The translations under genes were made by a program, and so were the position numbers. From an uncultured Pirellulaceae bacterium (lineage in GTDB: Bacteria > Planctomycetota > Planctomycetia > Pirellulales > Pirellulaceae), in assembly GCA_938091115.1 (NCBI GenBank), contig CALKNI010000162.1, positions 1 through 32,207 of the forward strand: a DNA stretch of 32,207 nt, in the 5' to 3' direction. This document shows positions 3,133-21,297 of this stretch, piece after piece (within the stretch, counting starts at the first letter, position 1; each line of letters begins with the position of its first letter). The notes beneath the pieces are model-generated. The model made no database searches. It worked only from the letters and a program-made list of their open reading frames with translations, and was not told the DNA's origin.

Positions 3133-4284
3133 TCAGTGAGGATGAATAGCCGCACCGATAAACAACGAAGTCAAAAACGCAAAAACATAAGCCTGAATAA
3201 AGGCCACCAACAACTCGAGAATGTTGACCGCAATCGTTGTCAGAATCACCGCAGGACCAACACCCCAAATCAACTGGGTGTGCCAGGTTACACCGATAAA
3301 TGCGACAAATACGCCGACCACCAAGTGACCGGCAAACATATTTGCAAACAATCGAACCGCCAACACGGCATGCTTGATCAGCAAGCCAAAGACCTCAATA
3401 CCCCAAATCATCGGAATGAGGATTATCTTTAAAAAAGGATTGATGTCGAGGTGGGGTGCCTGAGCTTTCAAGAAACCCGCAAAACCCATCTTCTTAATTC
3501 CAGTCGACATTACCACAAAGAAGACCGAAATCGCCAACGCCGCAGTCACTGAAATCGAACCAGTGGCGGCCCCCAAACCAGGAACCATTCCCAAAAGATT
3601 CAGGGCCAGCACAAAAAAGAATATTGTCCAAATAAACGGCAAAAACCGCTTGGCGTCCGAAGAACCAATCCCGGGAACAGCAACCTCATCGCGGATATAG
3701 CAAACCATGACGTCAATCACGTTCCAAAAGCGACCAACGGGACGATCGCCGCTCTTAATCCGCTTAGCATATGGAATAAAGATCGCCGCTACAATCAACG
3801 CCCCAATCAACTCCAGCACCACAAACTTGGTTGGCTGAAAAGTGACAGGGCCCACAAAATCATTTTTCTGGTACGCCCAAACCGAACCGTTCTCGCCCAT
3901 CATTGGACTTTCGTCCGTGTACGGGGAAATCTGCGGAATATACAACTTGTCCTTAATCATTCCTTCGCCCCACGGCGGAAAAGCCGGTAGCTCAAAGTGA
4001 TCTGAATCCTGAACATGCCCAATCAAACTATCGGGACTCAGATAATACCCCATCGCAAGGTCAATATTCTCATTCCATTCATCAGTCGATGCCGAATCTC
4101 CGCCATGCCCATGACCGTCTTCGTGGTGACCGTCTTCGTGGTGACCGTCCTCATCGTGGCCATCTTTACCATGACTACCTGCGTCGTGATCATGGCCACC
4201 TTCATCATGCCCATGACCCTCTTGTGTCGTCTGTTGTTCGTCATCCTGAGGACCAACGACCGAGAGTAAGCTGTTTTTTTTCAT
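3133..4284 (-). CDS. atpB: F0 ATP synthase subunit a with histidine-rich N-terminal arm
   Basis: This is the stator channel subunit of the proton path. The essential arginine is R311 in LAVRLFANMFAGH, and the C-terminal helix LLVAFIQAYVFAFLTSLFIGAAIH matches the family. At 383 residues it is more than 100 residues longer than E. coli subunit a (271). The extra part is at the N-terminus: residues 21-62 hold 12 histidines mixed with Asp, Glu and Gly, including a doubled GHHED unit, then about 90 residues lead to the first membrane helix near 153-170. The ATG at 4282-4284 has no clear Shine-Dalgarno site, but the coding pattern continues through the arm. Metal binding by the arm is an inference from composition only. 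Confidence 0.95.
   Translation of the reverse strand: MKKNSLLSVVGPQDDEQQTTQEGHGHDEGGHDHDAGSHGKDGHDEDGHHEDGHHEDGHGHGGDSASTDEWNENIDLAMGYYLSPDSLIGHVQDSDHFELPAFPPWGEGMIKDKLYIPQISPYTDESPMMGENGSVWAYQKNDFVGPVTFQPTKFVVLELIGALIVAAIFIPYAKRIKSGDRPVGRFWNVIDVMVCYIRDEVAVPGIGSSDAKRFLPFIWTIFFFVLALNLLGMVPGLGAATGSISVTAALAISVFFVVMSTGIKKMGFAGFLKAQAPHLDINPFLKIILIPMIWGIEVFGLLIKHAVLAVRLFANMFAGHLVVGVFVAFIGVTWHTQLIWGVGPAVILTTIAVNILELLVAFIQAYVFAFLTSLFIGAAIHPH
4112..4158 (+). repeat. 15-base tandem repeat encoding GHHED units in atpB
   Basis: Two identical 15-base units (4112-4126 and 4127-4141) and a diverged third unit (from 4142) lie in the histidine-rich arm of atpB. On the coding strand they encode GHHED-GHHED, then a degenerate copy. 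The in-frame period suggests that the arm grew by slippage or unequal exchange. Confidence 0.8.
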
Positions 4285-5445: not shown

Positions 5446-5626
5446 GGTAGTTTTGCTACCCCTAGTTTTTTAGTTGCGTTCCAAAACAGAGACCTCGCAA
5501 CCTTTTCAACGTGAACTGCTTTGCAGGGGTCGGCGACCGCAAGGGATACGGTCGATTAACAATTCACTTCCTTCTTCGGATCGGACTCCGCAAAGCCGGA
5601 ATTGTGTACTGGGTATCTCCAGTACA
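5446..5626 (+). promoter_or_regulatory. Hairpin-rich 5' leader of the DUF4912 gene
   Basis: Three short inverted repeats follow each other. GGTAG/CTACC (5446-5460) is followed by a T-run, CGACCG/CGGTCG spans 5534-5554, and the 8-base perfect stem TGTACTGG/CCAGTACA spans 5605-5626. The last ends about 40 bases before the start codon. This looks like a structured leader transcript; the first hairpin with its T-run could act as an attenuator. It matches no riboswitch class I recognise. Confidence 0.35.
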
Positions 5627-5667
5627 AACATTCGACGCCCCCTGGGCTGCGTCGAGGAGTACGAAAC

Positions 5668-6801
5668 TTGATTACTGCAGCGAACCTAGCGTCTCAAAAA
5701 TCCAAAGAACTCGCCCAGATGGCCAAAGAGAAAGGCGTTTCTGGCTGGCATTCGATGCGAAAAGACGAGCTGGTCAAGGCTCTTCTGAAAGTCGCCAAAC
5801 AAAAAGCGAAAGCTAAATCTGGAACCACTCGTAAAAAGGCCACAACGACAAAAACTGCTGGAAAGTCAGTTCGCGCCACCAAAGCTTCGGCTACCAACAA
5901 AAAGCCAAAGCAATCGGATTCTGCGATTGCAAAGAAGATCCGAATCGAGCGAGAACGACAAGAAAATTTAAAAAACCTGTCTTCCGCCGTCGGCATGGCC
6001 AGGCGCAACACCCCACCCGAAAAAGATCGCGTGATCTTGATCGTGCGAGATTCATTCTGGCTTCAGGCGTACTGGGAAGTCACTCGAGCGACCGTGCAAC
6101 GGGCCAAGGTGGCAATGACTGGAATTTGGCACAACGCGAAACCAGTTCTACGCCTCCTAGAAATCACAAGCGACGGTAACACCAACTCCGTTGAGAAAGT
6201 TGTTCAAGAAATTGAAATTCACAGCGGCGTAAACAATTGGTACGTCAACATCACCGAACCCTGCAAAAATTATCGGATTGCAATCGGCTACACCGCCCCG
6301 GGTGAAAAATTTCACCTGATTTCGAAAAGTAATCAGGTCTGCCCCCCGCCGGGCAGTTCACCTGAAGGTGAACACTGGACCGACATCACCAATGACGTAG
6401 AAAAATATTACTCTTTGAGTGGGGGGCACGACCCAAGAACCGTCTCAGCAGATCTACAAGAAGTGTTTGAAGAAAAGGCTCTTCAGCCAATGCACGCTCC
6501 GGCATTCGAGCGGTTAGGGTCTGGCGTAAACGCCAATGGACAGCGATTCAACTTCCAAGTCGACGCTCACATGATTGTACATGGAGCGACCGACCCAAGA
6601 GCGACCGTAACTGTCGCGGGAGAACCAATTCGCCTCCAGCCCGATGGATCATTTGCCCTGCGACTGGAACTCCCGGACCGTAGACAAGTCCTTCCCGTCG
6701 TCGCATCCAGTCGCGATGGCACTCACCAGCGAACGACCGTCCTCGCCGTTGAGAGAAACACCAAAGTTATGGAGCCCATAACCAACGACAATAAATCGTA
6801 A
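5668..6801 (+). CDS. DUF4912 protein with Rho_N-like N-terminus and basic linker
   Basis: The 377-residue protein has three parts. Residues 8-44 (SQKSKELAQMAKEKGVSGWH...) resemble the Rho N-terminal/SAP-like helical fold that can bind nucleic acid. Residues 45-92 are a Lys/Ala/Thr-rich linker. Residues about 119-228 match DUF4912 (VRDSFWLQAYWEVT, then WYVNITEPCKNYRIAIGY), followed by an acidic stretch and a beta-rich Ig-like tail (about 298-365, HGATDPRATVTVAGEPI) that accompanies DUF4912 in many proteins. A TTG start at 5668 is chosen because GAGGAG lies 8 bases upstream; the upstream in-frame TTG at 5602 lies inside a hairpin and has a poorer site. Function is unknown. A terminator follows at 6842-6872. 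Confidence 0.88.
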   Translation: MITAANLASQKSKELAQMAKEKGVSGWHSMRKDELVKALLKVAKQKAKAKSGTTRKKATTTKTAGKSVRATKASATNKKPKQSDSAIAKKIRIERERQENLKNLSSAVGMARRNTPPEKDRVILIVRDSFWLQAYWEVTRATVQRAKVAMTGIWHNAKPVLRLLEITSDGNTNSVEKVVQEIEIHSGVNNWYVNITEPCKNYRIAIGYTAPGEKFHLISKSNQVCPPPGSSPEGEHWTDITNDVEKYYSLSGGHDPRTVSADLQEVFEEKALQPMHAPAFERLGSGVNANGQRFNFQVDAHMIVHGATDPRATVTVAGEPIRLQPDGSFALRLELPDRRQVLPVVASSRDGTHQRTTVLAVERNTKVMEPITNDNKS

Positions 6802-17875: not shown

Positions 17876-18955
17876 ATGACAGATCTCCCCCCCCTTGAGA
17901 CGCGAGCCCGCCAATTACTCGGCACAGTCAAAGACCCTGAAACCGGTCGAAATCTCGCAAAACAGATCCACTCGGTCACCGCAGATAACAATGAACTAAA
18001 AATCCAGGTCGGATTGACTACGTTTGCTGCCCCTTTAAAAGCAGACTTTGAAAATGAGATCACAACACTCCTCAATGAGAACTTAGCCAGTGAAGTTGAA
18101 GATATATCTGTTGAAATCACCGAACATATTCGTCCCGCCCAACCACTTGGCCAAGTGGGACTCACAGCCAAAGCCGTAATTGCTGTAGCTGCAGGAAAAG
18201 GCGGCGTCGGCAAGAGCACGGTAGCGACCAGCCTAGCGCTGGCTTTAAAAAATGCAGGCTGCAAAACTGGAATTCTCGACGCGGATGTTTACGGGCCTAG
18301 TGTCCCACAGCTCACTGGTGTTCGTGGCCAAGTCCAAAAAATAGACGAGAAGATCCAACCGCTTGACTTTAACGGCATTCCTCTGATGAGCATAGGATTC
18401 ATGCTTCCACCAGACCAAGCTGTTATTTGGCGAGGTCCCATGCTGCATTCGGCAATCAAGACTTTTGTTCAGGGAACGGCATGGGGCGACCTCGATTATC
18501 TCATTATTGACATGCCACCGGGAACCGGCGACATCGCCTTAAGCCTTTCTCAATTATTGCCGCTAACCGGAACCGTCATCGTCTGCACACCGCAAGAAGT
18601 TGCCTTGATCGACGCCATCAAAGCTGTGGGAATGTTCCGCAAAGTTAAAATCCCCGTCCTTGGCTTAATTGAAAACATGAGCAGTTTCATTTGCCCTGAC
18701 AATGGCAAGGAGTATGACATCTTCGGCAAGGGCGGTGCCCAAAAATACGCAACGGAAGACAACATCGAGTTCCTCGGTGATATTCCGATCAATATCCAAT
18801 TACGCGAACGCGGTGATGCGGGTGAGATGGCGGCCAACTTCGAGGACGACGAGGTAGCCCCACACTTAGTGAAGATCGCCCACAATCTCGTTAAAACGCT
18901 GGCAAAAAATGCCGCCGAAACCCCCGTGCAGGCACAACTTCCTGTGCTTGGCTAA
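17876..18955 (+). CDS. mrp: Mrp/NBP35-family iron-sulfur cluster carrier ATPase
   Basis: The 359-residue protein has an N-terminal MIP18/DUF59-like domain (about 5-85) followed by the Mrp P-loop NTPase. The deviant Walker A GKGGVGKS is at 108-115, and DADVYGPSVPQL, WRGPML and IIDMPPGTGD are all family signatures. Members carry and transfer Fe-S clusters in the cytosol. The cluster-site region reads FICPDNGKEYDIFG, so C273 is present but the second cysteine of the usual CxxC is Asn 276. The ATG has only a weak ribosome site. It follows the coupled regulator pair by about 60 bases and is ended by the terminator at 18998-19022. Confidence 0.94.
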   Translation: MTDLPPLETRARQLLGTVKDPETGRNLAKQIHSVTADNNELKIQVGLTTFAAPLKADFENEITTLLNENLASEVEDISVEITEHIRPAQPLGQVGLTAKAVIAVAAGKGGVGKSTVATSLALALKNAGCKTGILDADVYGPSVPQLTGVRGQVQKIDEKIQPLDFNGIPLMSIGFMLPPDQAVIWRGPMLHSAIKTFVQGTAWGDLDYLIIDMPPGTGDIALSLSQLLPLTGTVIVCTPQEVALIDAIKAVGMFRKVKIPVLGLIENMSSFICPDNGKEYDIFGKGGAQKYATEDNIEFLGDIPINIQLRERGDAGEMAANFEDDEVAPHLVKIAHNLVKTLAKNAAETPVQAQLPVLG

Positions 18956-18997
18956 ATGCAGTCACACAAATCCCGCCTACCATCAGCGCAAAACTTA

Positions 18998-19027
18998 GGG
19001 CCACTTTTAAATAAAGTGGCCCTTTCT
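18998..19027 (+). terminator. Terminator after mrp
   Basis: A perfect 10-base stem GGGCCACTTT (18998-19007) / AAAGTGGCCC (19013-19022) with a five-base loop is followed by TTTCT. It lies about 40 bases after the mrp stop and about 45 bases before the end of the convergent lysine-pentad gene, so it could serve both. Confidence 0.85.
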
Positions 19028-19067
19028 CGTTGTTTCAATGTGTCAGTTGCTTAACTCGAAAATCGAG

Positions 19068-19340
19068 TTACTTCTTCTTTGCAACTTTTTTCTTAGCAGC
19101 TTTTTTCTTAGCAGGCTTCTTCTTAGCAACCTTCTTCTTAGCTACTTTTTTCTTAGCTACTTTTTTCTTAGCTACTTTTTTCTTAGCAACCTTCTTCTTA
19201 GCTACTTTTTTCTTAGCAACCTTTTTCTTGGCTACTTTTTTCTTAGCTACTTTTTTCTTAGCTACTTTTTTCTTAGCTACTTTTTTCTTAGCTACTTTTT
19301 TCTTTGCAGGCTTCTTCTTTGCTGCTTTCTTTTTGGCCAC
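19068..19340 (-). CDS. Histone-H1-like protein made of 18 xAKKK pentads
   Basis: The whole 90-residue product is 18 pentads of the form xAKKK, so 54 residues are lysine. From the N-terminus the first residues are M, A, P, then V twelve times, then P, A, V. The GTG at 19338-19340 is chosen because GGAGGA (19347-19352 on the complement) lies six bases upstream; a TTG at 19385 would add 15 unrelated residues. AKKK/PAKKK arrays occur as DNA-binding tails on histone H1, Hc1-like and HU-like proteins, so nucleoid binding is the likely role, but here there is no globular domain. The gene is convergent with mrp and has a non-coding A/T-tract region upstream. Confidence 0.82.
19071..19340 (-). repeat. 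Tandem array of 18 fifteen-base units
   Basis: The array coincides with the lysine-pentad coding sequence. Units differ mainly in Lys codons (AAA or AAG) and in the first codon (GTA, GTT, CCT, GCT or GCA). Four consecutive identical units near the 5' half and runs of the same unit elsewhere suggest recent expansion by slippage. Confidence 0.95.
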
Positions 19341-20401
19341 AGGACGTCCTCCGTTAATAGACCGTGGCGAGTCGCCCCCTAGCAAACATATGCCAGTCTT
19401 AAAGCAAACTCACCATTCGAAATTAAACCACTTCTAGAAATGGATCGAATGTCAGCTCGTTTCCAACCTTCGATGGTCAGAGTTCAATTTCAAATTTCAT
19501 ATTCGAAAAAACAATCTGCTTCCGTCGAAAACAAAATCTGAACTCAAGTTGACGAGCGTCTTTGATTCGTAAGTTTTAAAAAACAAAAAAAACTTTTCAA
19601 TATTGTTTTTGAAGTTTTCGGATTTTTTTTCCTCAACATTGAACCTGTTTTTTTCAATTAATCTAATCGACGTTAAAAAACGAACCCGAAGAGTTCGTTC
19701 CAAAACCAATAACTTCCACTTTCAACTGCAACAAGCCGTTAAAGTCAATTTCGAATTTCACTTAAAGTAATAAATGACCAATAAAAGAAACTTTGATCGA
19801 GACAGTGTTTCTCAACATGAGACAAACTACCTAGTCGACCAAAAAAACCATTGCATTGAGAGAGTTTGAAAAAAGGGATTTGGACAAAAAACACTTGGAA
19901 AAACAGAAAAAACAAAACACAACACCTTACGAATTAGTTTTCCTTCGACAGAAAACTCTTTGCACATGAATTTAAACTGAAACATCCAAGGCATCGATTC
20001 CTTCACAAACATTCCAGCAAAAACTAACGTAAACACGCACTGTTAGATTTTGATCTAAACAATTCACGCAAAATCGCCACACTTCAGTCCACAAAGCCGA
20101 CGTCATTCGTAAGATTAAAAACACTGCGAAAAAAAAAATCAAAAAAAGTGTTTTTTTTTCTTAGTTTTGCTCCTTTAAGTCGATTTCGGAGTCGCTATCC
20201 ACAATTTTTTGCAAACTGACTGAACTTCCCGCAAAGCAAAATTCACCTGCTATGCTCGACCTTGAAATTAAAACTGCGATTAATCTTGGCGTTAGACCCG
20301 ATGCGGCTTCTAAGAACACAAGCAGTTCGAATCACCCGAACGAGACTGGTGAGGGACGCGGCGAAACCACTTGGCAGCCACTGGATTAGCTGAAGTTGCA
20401 A
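19341..20401. other. Long non-coding region rich in A- and T-tracts
   Basis: About 1 kb between the lysine-pentad gene and the site-2 protease gene holds no ORF with coding character. It is visibly richer in A and T than its surroundings, with many runs of five or more A or T, often spaced irregularly (for example 19577-19591, 19622-19628, 20130-20160). A 9-base inverted repeat AAAAACACT (20117-20125) / AGTGTTTTT (20147-20155) encloses an A-run and is followed by more T. A shorter hairpin, ACGAAC/GTTCGT, lies near 19680-19700. No tRNA, RNase P, tmRNA or SRP RNA signature was found. Promoters for the pentad gene should lie at its left end. Confidence 0.6.
20117..20160 (+). terminator. Possible terminator-like hairpin with T-run
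   Basis: The arms AAAAACACT and AGTGTTTTT pair over nine bases around a 21-base A-rich loop, and nine T in total follow the G. The stem is A/T-rich and the loop is long, so it is a weak candidate and could simply reflect the A-tract composition. Confidence 0.25.
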
Positions 20402-21211
20402 CTACCAACGTGGGCCGTTGTACTGCTGGAGCATTTGATAATTGGTCCACGCCATAAACCCAAAAAAGAAGGCAAGAAACCGGTCCCCTGCCATAAAGCT
20501 GAATACTGCAATTAAAATCGCACAGCCAAGCGATAAAATGATACTGTTTCGAATTCCATTGTAAGCATCGATCTTCACCATGAACTGCCGAGCGATCTGC
20601 CCTCCATCGAGCGGGTATATCGGTGCAAGATTGAGTAGGTTCAAAAACAAGTTCAACATGATTCCGCCGTAACAGATCATGAATACGATCCCTCTTCCAG
20701 CATACTTGGACTCTTCGGAAAAGACGGGAATGAATAACGGCGGAAAACCTTCGTACCAGAGCAAAACTCCGCCTCCTAGCAAATACACCAAACCATAAAA
20801 AACCACTGCGAGCGCAAGCCCAAATGCTGGCCCGGCCACAGAGACGATAATTTGCTGGTTCGGATTTAATGCCCTATTCGACTGGCTACCCCACGCGCGT
20901 GAGGACTCAGGAATTGCCAATCCACCCATCCAATAAAGAACGATCCGAGAAGGAATACCAAAATATCGAAACGCAACGGCATGCCCAAGTTCGTGAATCA
21001 GAATGGAGACGAAAAAGATACCCGTTACCACCAAAAGCCCAACCCCTTGATTGACCTCTCTGGTGATTAAGCCTCTTCCCAGTAATAACGGCATGATGAA
21101 AAACGCGGGATGAACCCGAACGGGAAAACCGAAACAGGAAAAATTAAGATCATAACTAGTTCGCCCAGGCTCACTTAGAAACACCGCGACCTCCTTCTGA
21201 CTCAATGCCAT
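20402..21211 (-). CDS. Site-2 protease family (M50) intramembrane metalloprotease
   Basis: The zinc-binding HELGH is at 73-77 within a membrane helix (VTGIFFVSILIHELGHAVAFRYFG), and the third ligand D202 is in LNLAPIYPLDGGQI. About six membrane helices are predicted, with the conserved VSVAGPAFGL loop at 123-132. It resembles the compact SpoIVFB/YdiL-like M50 proteins (269 residues) without PDZ or CBS domains. Such enzymes cut membrane-bound regulators or signal-peptide remnants; the target here is unknown. The ATG at 21209-21211 is preferred, with GGTGG nine bases upstream; an adjacent TTG is possible. It lies downstream of lpxB on the same strand, after about 180 bases with an inverted repeat. 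Confidence 0.92.
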   Translation of the reverse strand: MALSQKEVAVFLSEPGRTSYDLNFSCFGFPVRVHPAFFIMPLLLGRGLITREVNQGVGLLVVTGIFFVSILIHELGHAVAFRYFGIPSRIVLYWMGGLAIPESSRAWGSQSNRALNPNQQIIVSVAGPAFGLALAVVFYGLVYLLGGGVLLWYEGFPPLFIPVFSEESKYAGRGIVFMICYGGIMLNLFLNLLNLAPIYPLDGGQIARQFMVKIDAYNGIRNSIILSLGCAILIAVFSFMAGDRFLAFFFGFMAWTNYQMLQQYNGPRW

Positions 21212-21297
21212 CAATTAAACCACCCCAAAGGAGCCCACGGTTGTGCAAACCGAGTGTCCGCAAATATCAATCAAATTCCCCAATAGTCTAACCAATA

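Follow-up and report, generated by a model that had tools for sequence, protein, structure and literature searches.

Hc2 (HctB) of the Chlamydiaceae (PF07382) is described in part of one study as a protein that condenses DNA and is built of lysine-rich pentamers, containing Lys, Ala, Val, Thr and Pro, whose number varies in frame (PMC2848022). The same part of that study gives its length as 165–237 residues, its pentads as two lysines or arginines with three other residues, and its C-terminal domain as having another charge pattern. BpH1 of Bordetella (182–206 residues in B. pertussis) and the Hc2-like proteins of Burkholderia, Ralstonia and Herminiimonas are likewise reported there to have lysine-rich pentads and to vary in size by repeat number (PMC2848022). 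In Pseudomonas, AlgP and PhaF carry C-terminal KPAA domains, Lys/Ala/Pro repeats that an extract of a second paper describes as predicted to be disordered and as DNA-binding, with a helical N-terminal domain preceding the repeat in AlgP (PMC9239181). Lysine repeats are also reported, in an extract of a third, for actinobacterial TopA (PMC7398561).

For planctomycetes, an excerpt of a tomography study of Gemmata states that no histone homologue was found, only HU proteins (PMC3440768), and an excerpt of an essentiality study of Planctopirus describes planctomycete DNA as highly condensed, most likely with DNA-binding proteins, which it leaves unnamed (PMC10632474). What we report as new is a widely kept gene for a pure polycation in the Planctomycetota. 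Among the literature matches listed, no title or abstract beginning pointed to such planctomycete proteins.

The polycation, its locus and its likeness to known proteins

The gene lies in a stretch of 32,207 nucleotides (the window) from an uncultured Pirellulaceae bacterium, whose genome is a 4.19 Mb bin of 232 contigs. The positions of the gene and of the features around it are given in Table 1. Analysis of the minus-strand frame confirmed both the coordinates and the count proposed in an earlier sequence-only reading, in which all 90 residues fell into 18 pentads: the 90 codons form exactly 18 xAKKK units. The product contains 54 lysines and no acidic or aromatic residues, and the first residues of its pentads run V A P V(x12) P A V. 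The underlying 15-bp array was detected by TRF at 19075–19304 (15.3 copies, score 334). An Rfam scan of the whole window gave no matches at gathering scores.

Table 1. Positions of the polycation gene and associated features in the window
Feature	Position	Strand	Remarks
mrp/ApbC-type P-loop ATPase gene (NUBPL family)	17876..18955	+	PF10609, 318.9 bits; convergent neighbour, marks the locus
Intrinsic terminator-like hairpin	18997..19023	+	Between mrp and the polycation gene
xAKKK polycation gene	19068..19340	-	GTG at 19340, TAA at 19070-19068; orthologues at the same place
10-bp perfect palindrome AGGACGTCCT	19341..19350		Overlaps the ribosome site
Shine-Dalgarno GGAGG	19348..19352	-	7 nt before GTG
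Inverted repeat CATTCGA...TCGAATG	19409..19454	-	69-114 nt upstream of the start, in many genus members
M50 peptidase gene	20402..21214	-	PF02163, 65.4 bits; upstream of the polycation gene, same strand

Terminator-like sites numbered three in the scanned stretch, against 1.5 expected by shuffling. An AT-rich spacer of ~1 kb separates the M50 peptidase gene from the polycation gene. In one relative (G013) an M50-like protein, recognized by eye, adjoins the polycation gene while mrp is on a different contig. A scan of viral contigs with the M50 protein as query found no relative. Elsewhere in the window, the plus-strand frame at 5602–6801 encodes a Rho_N domain, a K/T/A-rich linker and DUF4912, and is another lysine-rich, possibly nucleic-acid-binding protein. 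In addition, a 15-bp tandem repeat at 4112–4149 (within 3133–4284), near the start of a putative F-ATPase a subunit assigned by eye, encodes a His/Asp/Gly-rich N-terminal extension, HEDGHHEDGHHEDGH.

Searches of Pfam, NCBIfam and solved structures, together with AlphaFold2 modelling, found no globular domain in the polycation, as the sequence-only reading had held. The sole Pfam match at E 1 was to HC2 (PF07382), at 27.8 bits against a cut-off of 40, with no linker histone H1 winged-helix domain, and a Pfam match at E 0.01 was obtained for only one of 17 aligned members. Scores against the NCBIfam models for Hc2 (NF038052, 15.3 bits) and the Burkholderiales histone H1-like protein (NF038053, 17.7 bits) were also below their cut-offs of 135 and 80, respectively. 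The HU core (PF00216) was not matched in the polycation. The two PF00216 matches of this genome sit on other contigs, and of these HU-family proteins one (L034) has no lysine tail and the other (L033) is tail-less as far as it can be followed before its contig ends. Among solved structures, there was no match by sequence at E 1 and none in the PDB by fold at E 10. AlphaFold2 returned one helix spanning residues 9–89 (mean pLDDT 90, pTM 0.42), a prediction that carries little weight, as its input was one sequence of low complexity.

The resemblance to Hc2 lies in the tandem lysine-rich pentads and in their in-frame copy-number variation, with 9–19 units in eight genomes of the clade. However, the polycation is shorter, at 90 residues, than either Hc2 or BpH1, it has three lysines per pentad rather than two basic residues, and its array reaches the stop codon without a C-terminal domain of the Hc2 kind. 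Unlike AlgP, it consists of the repeat alone: the array begins at the GTG, with no N-terminal helical or phasin domain. The tails of topoisomerases, as in the topoisomerase-type protein of this genome, are likewise K/A/T-rich but form part of a large enzyme and have no separate gene. In that protein (L220, 601–3345, minus strand) the tail is irregular and K/A/T-rich, and a short terminal segment containing acidic residues comes after it. As the family cut-offs were not reached and the additional Hc2, H1 and AlgP domains were not found, we have not assigned the polycation to any of these families.

Occurrence at the mrp locus and beyond the family

The sequence-only reading had suggested a search of related genomes for stand-alone proteins at the mrp locus, and such proteins were found to be widespread. 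Within the genus, mrp was present in 26 of 28 genomes (E 1e-60), and in 21 of these 26 a stand-alone polycation gene follows it on the opposite strand within 1.5 kb. Among the remaining five, the contig ends no more than 260 bases from mrp in G004 and G023, with G023 retaining a 24-residue fragment; in G006 the polycation gene is ~1.6 kb from mrp and cut by the contig start; and in G013, as mentioned above, it is on a contig other than that of mrp. G001 yielded no candidates, either by the mrp locus or by whole-genome search.

Across the family, mrp was found in 138 of 149 genomes, of which 130 were examined, as 30 loci and 100 stretches. A stand-alone Lys/Ala polycation is encoded just downstream of mrp, and convergent with it, in 88 of these 130 genomes (5 of 6 genus loci, 17 of 24 further loci and 66 of 100 stretches, the last including some contig-end fragments or weak cases, namely L273, L281, L283, L285 and L308). 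The other 42 regions have no polycation gene at mrp, a figure that includes short stretches such as L282 (13 bases), L254 (188) and L245 (504). A control scan of both strands of 130 whole loci (L035–L164, some genomes being represented twice) gave matches in 77, all of them downstream of mrp on the opposite strand. In the 100 family stretches, mrp's own strand gave two matches (L225 and L252); in L225 the polycation gene of a family member is on the strand of mrp and not convergent with it. Named species with the gene at this locus include Blastopirellula marina DSM 3645, Bythopirellula polymerisocia and Botrimarina colliarenosi. Among 80 named loci, 39 have the polycation gene, 40 do not and one has no mrp motif.

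Whole-genome searches of 13 other genomes, most of them without the gene at mrp, identified a recognizable stand-alone copy in six (G006, G013, G062, G125, G023 as a fragment, and G030 with 39 residues) and none in seven, of which three (G001, G004 and G142) gave no matches and four (G014, G026, G143 and G107) only matches of other kinds. Judging from these searches, the polycation gene may be absent or dispensable in some genomes. With the single protein as query, 25 of 60 relatives were matched at E 0.001, some of these matches being tails of long proteins. The profile built from alignment A1 was less sensitive (1.3e-6 for its own gene against 9.2e-22 with the single protein), which we attribute to composition correction, and the census counts were therefore based on the mrp locus.

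Outside the family, too, stand-alone polycations of a similar kind are found, in other orders and classes of the phylum. Matches were obtained in 90 of 248 genomes in a class-wide search (E 0.01) and in 52 of 148 genomes in a phylum-wide one (E 0.001), both figures mixing stand-alone genes with tails of long proteins. On reading, 14 of the 24 loci added from the class (L182–L205) were judged to be stand-alone, each with GGAG before a GTG, as were eight of 14 from the phylum (L206–L219), which start with ATG. In one distant relative (L219, 717–1725) no stop codon separates a MAKKK array from the ORF upstream of it in the same frame, an arrangement that may be an overlap or a fusion. These class- and phylum-wide polycations may share one origin or have arisen repeatedly.

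Composition, start region and coding strand

To describe what is kept we used 109 distinct proteins, identical ones being counted once, which were picked by composition (K+R at least 0.30, and no more than 7 % of residues other than K, R, A, P, V, T, G or S) and by a start motif. L091, cut by a contig end, was dropped; L077, for which no start was found, had been omitted earlier; and L250, L265, L273, L281, L283, L285 and L308 were left out on account of ambiguous bases, an improper start or truncation. The proteins are 54 % lysine and 25 % alanine, followed by V, T, P and R, with a K+R fraction of 0.39–0.70 at lengths of 28–153 residues. Only seven of 8177 residues are acidic (D+E) and 37 (0.5 %) do not belong to the eight residue types named above, figures that are partly by construction yet far within the selection limits. 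Strict xAKKK order (at least 90 %) is found in only six of the 109 proteins, the others having irregular units that range from AKKKK and ATKKK to AAPKK. On this comparison, the strict pentad is a local state, and composition is what stays.

The sequence-only reading had also remarked on a palindromic order of the pentad variants. This order is present in the window protein, where its post hoc chance is 0.4 % given 14 V, 2 A and 2 P, but as a conserved feature it was rejected. In the eight clade genomes (the window's own included), the array keeps its frame throughout, a few units being tetrads; three of them (G000, G008 and G007) show the mirror order, G017, which has one tetrad unit, shows it when first letters are compared, and the other four (G022, G019, G003 and G018) break it. 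VAP stands at the start and PAV at the end of the array in six of the eight genomes each. The apparent palindrome consists of two fairly constant ends with a middle of like units between them. As the codons of the two ends differ, no DNA inverted repeat lies behind it.

The ribosome site, by contrast, is nearly invariant. GGAGG is located 5–8 nt before the start (within 20 nt) in 108 of the 109 distinct proteins, the window's included, and was no criterion in their selection; the one exception, L086, is 2.6 kb from mrp. Translation starts at GTG in 101 and at ATG in eight, followed by AKK, ATK or AKT, although the selection itself, in which each row was made to begin at a motif of this kind, accounts for part of these start and N-terminal figures. 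By comparison, GGAGG precedes the listed start of none of the 23 other window ORFs taken as main genes, whose starts were set mechanically and are perhaps wrong in some cases. These data support the argument of the sequence-only reading that a strong ribosome site marks a true gene. A frameshift linking the array to a globular domain in relatives, which that reading had raised as an objection to itself, was not borne out, and the candidate of a missed upstream domain was likewise rejected: the frame upstream is not conserved, and those relatives that were read at this locus also lack a domain. An extra base between GGAGG and GTG in L054 and L055 indicates that the leader is non-coding.

The palindrome AGGACGTCCT occurs in 19 of 21 aligned genus leaders (it is absent from L054 and L055) and was not seen in the leaders inspected from other genera. 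The inverted repeat further upstream could possibly be a leader hairpin or an operator for autoregulation. Its fold, computed without near-copies and rows lacking a clear repeat, has 12 predicted pairs, two of them with two-sided change (10 of 21 genus rows), with little covariation and a single-sequence z-score of -1.07. No sigma-70-like promoters were found near the polycation gene, against 2.0 expected by shuffling.

The codon comparisons bear on whether there is a lysine protein at all. In the 18 units, positions 1 and 2 of the A-K-K-K codons are invariant and third positions vary. Between the window and its closest relative of equal length (G022) there are 18 base differences in 17 codons, and 16 of the 17 codon changes are synonymous; random placement of 18 base changes (20,000 draws) altered a mean of 13.8 residues and never fewer than five. 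In a second equal-length pair (G008 and G007), six of seven changed codons were synonymous. One can nevertheless argue that there is no functional lysine protein here, and that the locus is a slippage-prone DNA repeat or that the real product is that of a hydrophobic antisense FFLAT-repeat frame at 19030–19437 on the plus strand, which is open and, when G000 is compared with G022, shows equally little change (1 of 16 changed codons). Because the antisense frame is as quiet as the lysine frame, the codon test shows selection on one of the two frames without choosing the strand, and the choice of strand rests on the start region of the lysine frame. That region speaks for the lysine frame, with its GGAGG no more than 20 nt upstream in all but one of the distinct proteins and with the GGAG site and GTG recurring in the 14 stand-alone loci of the class-wide search; in addition, irregular arrays with no strict DNA repeat retain the composition. 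We consider the absence of a lysine protein highly improbable. The lysine frame is very probably a true gene, and the codon comparisons show that a frame here is under purifying selection. The open antisense frame would be a by-product of the lysine codons, and its mis-annotation as a membrane protein is possible.

Candidate partners of the polycation and its meaning

Based on these findings, we favor the interpretation, at a probability of about 0.58, that the gene encodes a domainless DNA-condensing polycation of the nucleoid that resembles an H1 tail and works like Hc2, BpH1 or H1 tails. The sequence-only reading had suggested compaction of the nucleoid or RNA binding, and of these the nucleoid role is the one we find plausible and prefer. 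A chain of this composition would bind DNA electrostatically with no sequence preference; its lysines would neutralize phosphates and the chains would bridge duplexes, thereby helping to maintain the condensed nucleoid of these planctomycetes, and Ala and Val would permit a helix after charge pairing. Gain and loss of units would shift array length and so set the charge of the chain, with the order of units being irrelevant. The strong, near-invariant ribosome site would fit a protein that is translated at a high level and made in quantity. By our own arithmetic, at +54 per chain, it would take ~16,000 copies to pair one-tenth of the phosphates in a chromosome of 4.2 Mb.

That DNA is the partner and condensation the effect is inferred from several observations. 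The gene keeps its place and orientation in most genus and family genomes examined, synonymous changes dominate, the composition stays far inside the selection limits and a lysine-rich tail is also present on this genome's topoisomerase-type enzyme. In addition, Hc2 is reported, in the part of the study cited above, to condense DNA (PMC2848022), and planctomycete DNA is described as highly condensed in the excerpt on Planctopirus (PMC10632474). Several points weaken the case: a polycation would bind RNA and polyphosphate too, known nucleoid genes are not adjacent and mrp is merely a convergent neighbor, about a third of the family's mrp regions (42 of 130) lack the gene, no sigma-70-like promoter was found, and AlphaFold2 predicted, from a single low-complexity sequence, one confident helix and not a disordered chain.

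After DNA, the most likely target is RNA or polyphosphate. By analogy with AlgP, the protein might have RNA, ribosomes or polyphosphate as its main partner and serve as a charge scaffold for granules or ribonucleoprotein. The chemistry would be the same, and the extract on AlgP reports that this KPAA-repeat protein localizes to polyphosphate granules and that the repeat domain is needed for granule spacing (PMC9239181). However, the N-terminal helical domain of AlgP is missing from the polycation and no polyphosphate gene was evident among the window ORFs, as judged by eye and from six proteins scanned against Pfam; we regard such a partner as a real but less likely alternative. Less probable still is an accessory charge reservoir, in which a stand-alone lysine tail aids topoisomerases or other DNA enzymes in trans or acts as a basic counter-ion or storage peptide. 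The irregular K/A/T tail of the topoisomerase-type enzyme and the similar tails of long ORFs in relatives are consistent with this suggestion, but the polycation is encoded by a gene whose start, ribosome site and locus are its own and are conserved.

If the polycation does condense DNA, it is tempting to extend the interpretation to the whole phylum, with domainless chromatin proteins, each a pure Lys/Ala "naked tail" with a gene of its own, as a main agent of the condensed nucleoids of Planctomycetota. We offer this broader proposal as a speculation that we hold to be doubtful. Such proteins may have been overlooked because trypsin would cut them into pieces too short for proteomics, because they are domainless for profile searches (the domain libraries tested gave nothing above cut-off) and because the masking of low-complexity sequence can conceal them from BLAST.

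The polycation is a good candidate for one of the as yet unnamed proteins that pack the dense DNA of planctomycetes. The gene is short, its locus is recurrent and cultured strains, Blastopirellula marina DSM 3645 among them, carry orthologues, which makes the question of nucleoid condensation a testable one. If our interpretation is correct, this would be a chromatin protein kept across a family by its composition and charge, in whose gene the ribosome site and the start would be the most fixed letters.
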